Notes under the pieces: model-generated
Databases searched by the model: none
Told to the model about the DNA's origin: nothing
Seen by the model: the letters and a program-made list of their open reading frames with translations, nothing else
Source: Geomonas oryzisoli
Lineage (GTDB): Bacteria > Desulfobacterota > Desulfuromonadia > Geobacterales > Geobacteraceae
Reading direction: 5' to 3'
Assembly: GCF_018986915.1 (NCBI RefSeq)
Contig: NZ_CP076723.1
Span: forward strand, 2,079,501 to 2,143,500
DNA: 64,000 nt
Part shown: piece after piece, positions 34,974 through 47,163 of the stretch
How positions within the stretch are numbered: the stretch's first letter is position 1
Layout: every line of letters starts with the position of its first letter
Translations under genes and position numbers: made by a program

Positions 34974-35114
34974 TGCTGCGCGGCCCGGGGACGGTCAGAC
35001 GAGCCTCACGCCGGTGCACAATAGTTAGGCAATTGCCTTGCTCGAAAGCTCGACAGGATGAAGATTGAGAAAACGGTAAACGATATATCAACGCAAAAGC
35101 AGCAAGTTACGGAT
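34974..35114. other. nifV-nifH intergenic region with palindrome
   Basis: This stretch contains the perfect palindrome AGGCAATTGCCT (35027-35038), about 77 bases upstream of the nifH -24 box, a plausible site for a sigma-54 activator. No TGT-N10-ACA (NifA) site was seen. Confidence 0.4.
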
Positions 35115-35130
35115 TGGCACAGCAACTGCA
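35115..35130 (+). promoter_or_regulatory. sigma-54 promoter of the nifH operon
   Basis: TGGCACAGCAACTGCA fits TGGCAC-N5-TTGCA with the GG and GC spaced as required. Transcription should start near 35140, giving a 245-base leader. Confidence 0.9.
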
Positions 35131-35152
35131 ATAAAGAAGACAAAACCGAATA

Positions 35153-35226
35153 GGGATACACCGAGGTATTCCAACTAGAGCAGGAAGGCAAGGGCGCCAC
35201 CGTAGCAATACGGAGCGCCCTTTTTT
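35153..35226 (+). promoter_or_regulatory. ANTAR-type antitermination leader of nifH: two hexaloop hairpins and a terminator
   Basis: Hairpin P1: GGGATAC, loop ACCGAG, GTATTCC (35153-35172). After 14 bases comes P2: GGC, loop AAGGGC, GCC (35187-35198). Both loops have A at position 1 and G at position 4, the ANTAR recognition rule. The terminator uses AAGGGCGC (35190-35197) with GCGCCCTT (35215-35222), an inner CCGTA/TACGG stem and six T. P2 and the terminator share bases 35190-35197, so forming P2 prevents termination. An ANTAR protein such as Geobacter GnfR would stabilise P2 when nitrogen is limiting. Confidence 0.85.
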
Positions 35227-35345
35227 ATTGGAATTGGCCTCGAAAACCAAAAGAGCCCCGCGCCGCCTTCGAATCTGAGGTGGCCGGACGAGACCGGCGG
35301 GTTCGTCAGAGTGGCTGACGATGTCGGTCGAGCGGTTACCGGTAG

Positions 35346-36254
<909 letters not shown>

Positions 36255-46168: not shown

Positions 46169-46184
46169 TGGCACGCTAAATGCT
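46169..46184 (+). promoter_or_regulatory. sigma-54 promoter of nifB
   Basis: TGGCACGCTAAATGCT matches TGGCACG-N4-TTGCT in all but one base, with correct -24/-12 spacing. Start of transcription is expected near 46194, only a few bases before the antitermination leader. Confidence 0.9.
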
Positions 46185-46198
46185 CATAAGAGGTCAAA

Positions 46199-46273
46199 GG
46201 TACAACGTTGTATCTGACAGTGACGGCAACGATGCCCGGCGGATAGAGATATCCGACCGGGCATTTTCGTTTT
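46199..46273 (+). promoter_or_regulatory. ANTAR-type antitermination leader of nifB
   Basis: P1: GGTAC, loop AACGTT, GTATC (46199-46214). After 10 bases comes P2: GGC, loop AACGAT, GCC (46225-46236). Both loops have A1 and G4. The terminator pairs ATGCCCGG (46232-46239) with CCGGGCAT (46257-46264), with an inner CGGATA/TATCCG stem and GAGA loop, followed by TTTTCGTTTT. P2 shares 46232-46236 with the terminator, so they exclude each other. The layout is the same as in the nifH leader. Confidence 0.87.
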
Positions 46274-46305: not shown

Positions 46306-47163
46306 ATGGCAACCTCGTGCGAAAAGATGAAGAAGATTCAGGGACATCCCTGCTTCGGCGGCAACCACCACAAAAACGGAAGGATGCACCTGGCTGTGGC
46401 CCCCAAGTGCAACATCAAGTGCGGGTACTGCACCAGGCGCCACGATTGTGCCAACGAGTCCCGCCCCGGCGTGACCAGCCGCCTGCTTTCGCCCGAGGAG
46501 GCGATCGTACGGGTGCGCGAGGTGATGGCTAGCCCGGTGACCGGCCCCATCATCAAGGTCATCGGCATCGCGGGACCCGGCGATCCTCTGTTCAACGAGG
46601 AGACGTTCGAGACCTTCCGCCTGGTGGACCGCGAGTTCCCCGACCTGATCAAGTGCATGAGCACCAACGGTCTCCTTCTGCCCGACAAGATGCCGGTCCT
46701 GAAGGCGCTTGGATTGCACAGCCTCACCGTCACCCTCAACACGCTGGACCCGGAAATCGGCGGAAGGATCTACTCCTATGTGCACTACCATGGCACGACC
46801 TACAGCGGGAAGGAGGCCGGAGAGATCCTGGTGCGCAACCAGCTCGAAGGAATCCGCCAGGCCGCGGAGCTGGGCATGACCATCAAGATAAACACGGTCC
46901 TGATCCCGGGGGTCAACGACGGGCAGATCCCGCTCATCTCCCAGAAAGTCAAAGAACTCGGTGCATTCGTGATGAACATCATGCCGCTGATCCCGCAGGC
47001 GGATTTCGCTCACATTCAGCCGCCTTCCGCTGAGCGCCTGGACGAGCTGCGCCGGGACAACGAGAAGACCATCGGGCAGTTCAAGCACTGCAAGCAGTGC
47101 CGCGCCGACGCTGTAGGACTTATCGGCGAGAATCTGCAACTGGCAGTGACAACGGCGGGCTGA
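46306..47163 (+). CDS. nifB: FeMo-cofactor biosynthesis radical SAM protein NifB (short form)
   Basis: 285 residues. It makes NifB-co, the carbide-centred 8Fe core, from two 4Fe clusters using SAM. The radical SAM motif is CNIKCGYC (C35, C39, C42), preceded by HPCFGGNHHKNGRMHL and followed by TRRHDCANESRPGV. It ends CKQCRADAVGLIGE with further cluster cysteines. There is no C-terminal NifX domain, so this is the short form; the separate NifX proteins may serve instead. AAGGAGG precedes the ATG at 46306. Confidence 0.96.
   Translation: MATSCEKMKKIQGHPCFGGNHHKNGRMHLAVAPKCNIKCGYCTRRHDCANESRPGVTSRLLSPEEAIVRVREVMASPVTGPIIKVIGIAGPGDPLFNEETFETFRLVDREFPDLIKCMSTNGLLLPDKMPVLKALGLHSLTVTLNTLDPEIGGRIYSYVHYHGTTYSGKEAGEILVRNQLEGIRQAAELGMTIKINTVLIPGVNDGQIPLISQKVKELGAFVMNIMPLIPQADFAHIQPPSAERLDELRRDNEKTIGQFKHCKQCRADAVGLIGENLQLAVTTAG

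Follow-up and report, generated by a model that had tools for sequence, protein, structure and literature searches.

In Geobacter sulfurreducens, nif genes are reportedly controlled through antitermination by GnfR/GnfM, as Ueki and Lovley are said to have described in 2010. A nif regulon under an ANTAR protein has been predicted in Pelobacter carbinolicus (PMC3369931). Both systems have in common with the locus analysed here that they occur in related bacteria and combine nif genes, an ANTAR response regulator and leader terminators; they differ from it in that the GnfR orthologue of the present genus has a receiver without the phospho-acceptor aspartate and is encoded away from the nif genes. 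The other close comparison is with the ANTAR target RNAs bound by EutV in the eut genes of E. faecalis (Ramesh 2012, PMC3369931; James 2022, PMC8934654). With these, the leader of nifB shares two A1/G4 hexaloops, a short linker, an overlap between the second hairpin (P2) and a terminator, and an ANTAR protein encoded in the genome. Unlike the eut leaders, it lies behind a sigma-54 promoter, serves nif genes and has a P2 stem of only 3 bp; moreover, its relatives may have a G at position 1 of the loop of the first hairpin (P1), and a sister clade has no P1. The closing bases AC/GU of P1, which are essential in eutP (PMC3369931), are the same in nifB.

On every feature that could be tested, the nifB leader conforms to the ANTAR dual-hexaloop targets, a known kind of switch. 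The clade without P1, the loss of the receiver aspartate and our reading of the Rfam families P11 and narK RNA go further than this; the interest lies in the natural variants around the leader.

Architecture of the nifB leader

The window, i.e. the whole 64-kb stretch of DNA that was analysed, comes from a Geomonas-like genome and contains nifB on its forward strand, on which all features described for the two leaders below also lie. The sigma-54 (−24/−12) promoter, TGGCACGCTAAATGC, was read from the sequence at 46169–46183, and its position is conserved in almost every nifB leader compared. Counting 12 nt from the C of the −12 GC, according to sigma-54 spacing, transcription is predicted to start at 46195 ± 2, which is 3 nt upstream of P1; this agrees with the sequence-only reading, which had placed the leader within about five bases of the predicted start. 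P1, AGGTAC(AACGTT)GTATCT, has 6 bp and an A1/G4 hexaloop (46198–46215; identified from the sequence, a motif scan and covariation). It is followed by a linker of 9 nt (46216–46224, read from the sequence), within the range of about 5–12 nt of known targets; the 10 bases given earlier are obtained if P1 is counted as 5 bp. P2, the antiterminator, is GGC(AACGAT)GCC, with 3 bp and again an A1/G4 hexaloop (46225–46236; sequence, scan and conservation).

The intrinsic terminator (46232–46267; sequence, folding and covariation) has a 14-bp stem with one bulge and is followed by TTTT. Its arms pair 46232–46239 with 46257–46264 and 46240–46245 with 46250–46255, with A256 bulged. Both loops and the overlapping 14-bp terminator stem, as reported earlier, can be read directly from the sequence. 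Nucleotides 46232–46236, which comprise the 3' arm of P2 together with the final two bases of its loop, are common to P2 and the terminator, and the two structures are mutually exclusive. Folding of 46194–46270 yields P1 plus the terminator at −32.8 kcal/mol (z = −4.6), a value that none of 200 shuffled sequences reached. When the RNA is cut at P2, the centroid structure consists of P1 plus P2, while the minimum free energy structure is a different fold.

The nifB gene starts with the ATG at 46306 and extends to 47163. It encodes a short form comprising the radical SAM part only, with a TIGR01290 score of 324 bits, slightly below the cut-off for the full-length family. The closest protein is NifB of Geomonas diazotrophica (96%). 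Second NifB-like genes, 62–67% identical to the query, occur without this type of leader at four loci (L072, L073, L074 and L076), for example in Geomonas propionica.

Comparison with the nifH leader and other sites in the genome

The nifH leader (35115–35228) contains the same elements in the same order, with different letters: a sigma-54 promoter, TGGCACAGCAACTGC (35115–35129, read from the sequence), a P1 with the loop ACCGAG (35153–35172), P2, GGC(AAGGGC)GCC (35187–35198), and a terminator that overlaps P2 and runs into a T-run (35190–35228), the last three from the sequence and the motif scan. nifH itself (TIGR01287) occupies 35385–36254. The nifH linker measures 14 nt and exceeds the 5–12 nt of the E. 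faecalis eut leaders, in which a 14-nt linker drastically lowered induction (PMC3369931).

A scan of both strands of the 64 kb for A1/G4 dual hexaloops plus a terminator returned exactly two sites, those of nifH and nifB, and none in ten first-order Markov shuffles. That the nifB leader repeats the nifH layout with different sequences is borne out; the description of it as an independent copy is not, since both leaders may descend from a common one.

When a covariance model was run over the whole genome, the best score was that of nifB (46.2 bits, E = 1e-9), followed by that of nifH (39.3 bits, E = 1e-7); both leaders belong to its training set. A third site, at genome positions 3361810–3361887 on the minus strand (L224/L286), scored lower than these two, at 21.9 bits (E = 0.01), and has the full set of elements: a sigma-54 site, P1, GCAC(AACGAA)GTGC, P2, GGC(AAAGGC)GCC, a terminator and a T-run. 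It is located upstream of a gene for an outer-membrane-like protein without a Pfam or NCBIfam match, and homologues of this gene in other members of Geomonas are preceded by the same arrangement (L282, L283). An amino-acid permease-like gene of Geomonas sp. Red32 (L284) has a similar leader.

The other model matches that were read (L223, L225, L226, L229, L231 and L235) lie in coding sequence or do not have the set of sigma-54 site, P1, P2 and terminator, and a wider regulon was rejected as far as these matches are concerned. Matches to P2 plus a T-run (L288, L290 and L293) were discarded, as they have no P1 or sigma-54 site, and the bare P2 pattern GGCANNGNNGCC, with 841 matches, is useless genome-wide. 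Covariance matches of about 65 nt common to several relatives (L265–L268) are chance matches in coding sequence.

Conservation and covariation

The set of leaders gathered covers 76 nifB and 30 nifH loci. When nifB and nifH leaders are treated in one model, as had been proposed, the 29 dual leaders have P1 paired in 97% of the cells, with compensatory changes in five of the six pairs, although the choice of sequences for the alignment, which required 4 bp or more in the P1 stem as well as GGC...GCC, is biased towards pairing. The covariation score of P1 was equalled by no shuffle and is destroyed by sliding the partner strand. Without this choice, an R1/G4 hexaloop on a stem of at least 4 bp lies in the short stretch before P2 in 24 of the 27 nifB leaders from the wider group to which the window belongs, where 0.6 would be expected; in the remaining three, P1 is 3 bp long, bulged or off-consensus (L020, by eye). 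The terminator helix is likewise 97% paired and contains compensatory changes.

The P2 stem is invariant: it is conserved, yet offers no covariation evidence. Since it has only 3 bp and does not vary, the grounds for the pairing of P2 are its conservation and the established ANTAR model. Its loop is A1/G4 in all 71 nifB leaders, whereas position 1 of the P1 loop is A or G in relatives (GACGAC, GTTGCA), so that a strict A1/G4 rule holds for P2 only. Of the earlier proposal that covariation marks a selected structure, P1 and the terminator thus uphold their part and P2 does not. As judged by comparison of related sequences, the structure of the nifB leader is evidently under selection.

These data bear on the simplest alternative, that of a plain terminator or constant attenuator, with the two hexaloops being accidental hairpins. 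The terminator is indeed strong by itself and P2 shares its sequence. However, P1 lies outside the terminator and nevertheless covaries, the GGCAA half of P2 is outside the terminator arm and nearly invariant in the 71 nifB leaders, and the layout is found again before nifH and before the third gene. We therefore regard this alternative as extremely improbable.

Relation to Rfam families

At gathering level, Rfam matches nothing in the window. The best sub-threshold matches are P11 (RF00625) for nifH, with 26.2 bits (gathering threshold 70), and narK RNA (RF03032) for nifB, with 15.6 bits (gathering threshold 43.2); neither leader is a member of these families. Both matches are full length and in register (35105–35219 and 46170–46238 of the window). 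Because the consensus lines of P11, filed as a Pseudomonas sRNA, and of narK RNA combine a sigma-54 site with two A1/G4 hexaloops, we read both families as putative sigma-54 dual-hexaloop ANTAR leaders too; a narrow literature search for each found no paper saying so.

The ANTAR protein and the proposed mechanism

GnfR was sought within the 64-kb window and not found; an open reading frame of 192 amino acids near nifH, considered as a candidate, encodes an ABM-domain protein. The genome contains one match to PF03861 (E = 5e-20), encoded at about 936 kb (L001:1477–2061, minus strand), away from the nif genes. In the family, 46 of 48 genomes have an ANTAR match, nearly always exactly one, and the two without are about 70% complete; an extra, divergent ANTAR gene is present in genomes G055 and G056. 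The gene gnfR has been named a nitrogen-fixation response regulator (PMC7962754). Before the ANTAR gene, a sigma-54-like site, TGGAACGCTCTATGC or a close variant of it, is found in all genomes with the altered receiver described below and in most of the canonical ones examined, and its near-constant distance from the stop codon supports orthology of these genes. A divergent PAS kinase gene adjoins the ANTAR gene; its product is a possible cognate histidine kinase. The ANTAR domain aligns with the structures of EutV, PdtaR and NasR. Among the RNA-contact residues of EutV (PMC8934654), Arg142, Lys143, Lys147, Lys149 and Glu160 are kept, and Phe replaces Tyr164.

The hairpins might instead be read by a riboswitch or by an RNA-binding regulator other than an ANTAR protein. 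The Rfam matches being below threshold and ANTAR binding being a prediction here would agree with such a reader, but the A1/G4 hexaloops, the closing bases and the overlap of P2 with the terminator are the signature of ANTAR targets (PMC3369931, PMC8934654). Furthermore, an ANTAR gene accompanies the nifB leader in 41 of 42 genomes, the exception being Geobacter argillaceus (L056). A non-ANTAR reader is thus very unlikely, and the nifB leader, which follows a sigma-54 promoter, is very probably a switch that acts by transcription antitermination of the ANTAR type.

In the mechanism we propose, without active ANTAR protein P1 would fold and the terminator would take the 3' half of P2; once the terminator had formed, RNA polymerase would stop before nifB. 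When available, the cell's only ANTAR protein, the GnfR orthologue, would bind P1 and then P2. With P2 held closed by GnfR, the terminator would be blocked and transcription would reach nifB; nifH and the outer-membrane-like gene would be switched likewise. In this free-living nitrogen fixer, nifB, the first step in the assembly of the nitrogenase cofactor, would then share its type of RNA control with nifH, and the most likely role of the switch is to have nitrogenase parts made only when needed.

A pseudo-receiver in Geomonas and near relatives

In the receiver of the ANTAR protein of the window's genome, Glu replaces the phospho-acceptor Asp (VVEF), the first acidic residue is lost and Thr is replaced by Ala, while the Lys is kept. 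Receivers with these changes are found in Geomonas, Citrifermentans bremense, Geomesophilobacter and one further genus, which form one clade (support 100/100). Elsewhere the canonical residues are intact, the Asp being kept by almost every other genus in the comparison; the exception, Pelotalea chapellei (L147), represents a second, separate loss. As the sole ANTAR protein does not have the phospho-acceptor, the usual phosphorylation switch cannot apply unchanged in Geomonas, and control there most likely acts through the amount of GnfR, by way of its own sigma-54-like site, or through a partner.

Receivers without the Asp are enriched among proteins with ANTAR outputs and include AmiR (PMC4395418). 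According to the work cited there, AmiR of Pseudomonas aeruginosa is likewise an ANTAR protein whose receiver does not have the phospho-acceptor; AmiR is held by its partner AmiC, whereas the loss in the GnfR family is a lineage-specific event.

A variant that is compatible with the antitermination switch, and that we consider plausible if somewhat less than probable, is that the Glu keeps GnfR permanently active. The step would then be unregulated in Geomonas and the terminator would only tie nifB to GnfR made from its own sigma-54 promoter, as a feed-forward gate. The pattern of substitutions, fixed in one clade, and the sigma-54-like site before gnfR are in line with this, as is the mimicry of phosphate by Glu at the phosphorylation site of NtrC (Klose 1993, as cited in PMC4395418). 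A pseudo-receiver can, however, bind a partner instead, as AmiR does with AmiC.

Leaders without P1 in a sister clade

The sequence-only reading expected the hexaloops and the terminator to recur in the nifB leaders of relatives, and half of this expectation fails: leaders without P1 exist, 42 of the 44 belonging to one sister clade, and all of them keep P2 and the terminator. This clade comprises Oryzomonas, Pelotalea and related metagenome-assembled genomes, and its 42 leaders form one branch of the NifB tree (support 100/99); the two further Geobacteraceae leaders (L053, L065) are separate cases without P1. Examples from the sister clade are found before nifB at L017, L018, L019, L023, L028, L033 and L043, and before nifH at L206, L209 and L216.

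In 35 of the leaders, the −12 element is 15–23 nt from P2 (15–19 nt in 34 of them), which leaves no room for P1 in the predicted transcript, as this would start a few nt before P2; counted from the predicted start of the nifB transcript, the first base of P2 is at about +4 to +8. Seven more leaders do have room, and only one of these contains any 4-bp hexaloop hairpin. The nifH leaders behave in the same way: P1 is present in one of 16 in the sister clade (0.33 expected) versus ten of 12 in the other group by the same test. Single-hexaloop leaders are also found in the sister clade before nifX, an AmtB-like gene and nifV (L272, L274, L045:11820–11900).

The ANTAR proteins of the group without P1 keep the phospho-acceptor Asp and have Tyr at the position that stacks on G4, as opposed to Phe in the dual-hairpin group. 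In several sister-clade genomes the ANTAR gene is about 1.3–2 kb upstream of nifB. This proximity, the conservation of the leaders and the fact that every genome tested contains an ANTAR gene suggest that leaders without P1 are functional ANTAR switches. In work on EutV, one hexaloop was the minimal unit for binding, yet P1 was required while transcription was in progress (PMC8934654); the leaders without P1 are therefore a natural test of this need.

We hold it to be evenly balanced whether the GnfR/nif system departs twice from the accepted ANTAR model. In the sister clade, a single hexaloop without P1, 3–7 nt into the nifB transcript, would do the whole job, with Tyr for Phe at the G4-stacking residue. 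In Geomonas and its near relatives, two hairpins are kept and the Glu pseudo-receiver would be uncoupled from a kinase, so that antitermination would follow the amount of GnfR or a partner. The relatives thus provide a series (dual leader with normal receiver, dual leader with pseudo-receiver, single hexaloop with normal receiver) that makes testable both the need for P1 in ANTAR antitermination, as stated by the EutV work, and the nature of the activator of a pseudo-receiver antiterminator. In Pelotalea chapellei (L033), the species with the decayed receiver, the P2 sequence of the nifB leader is nearly duplicated (CCGGCAACGAGGCAACGACGCC).
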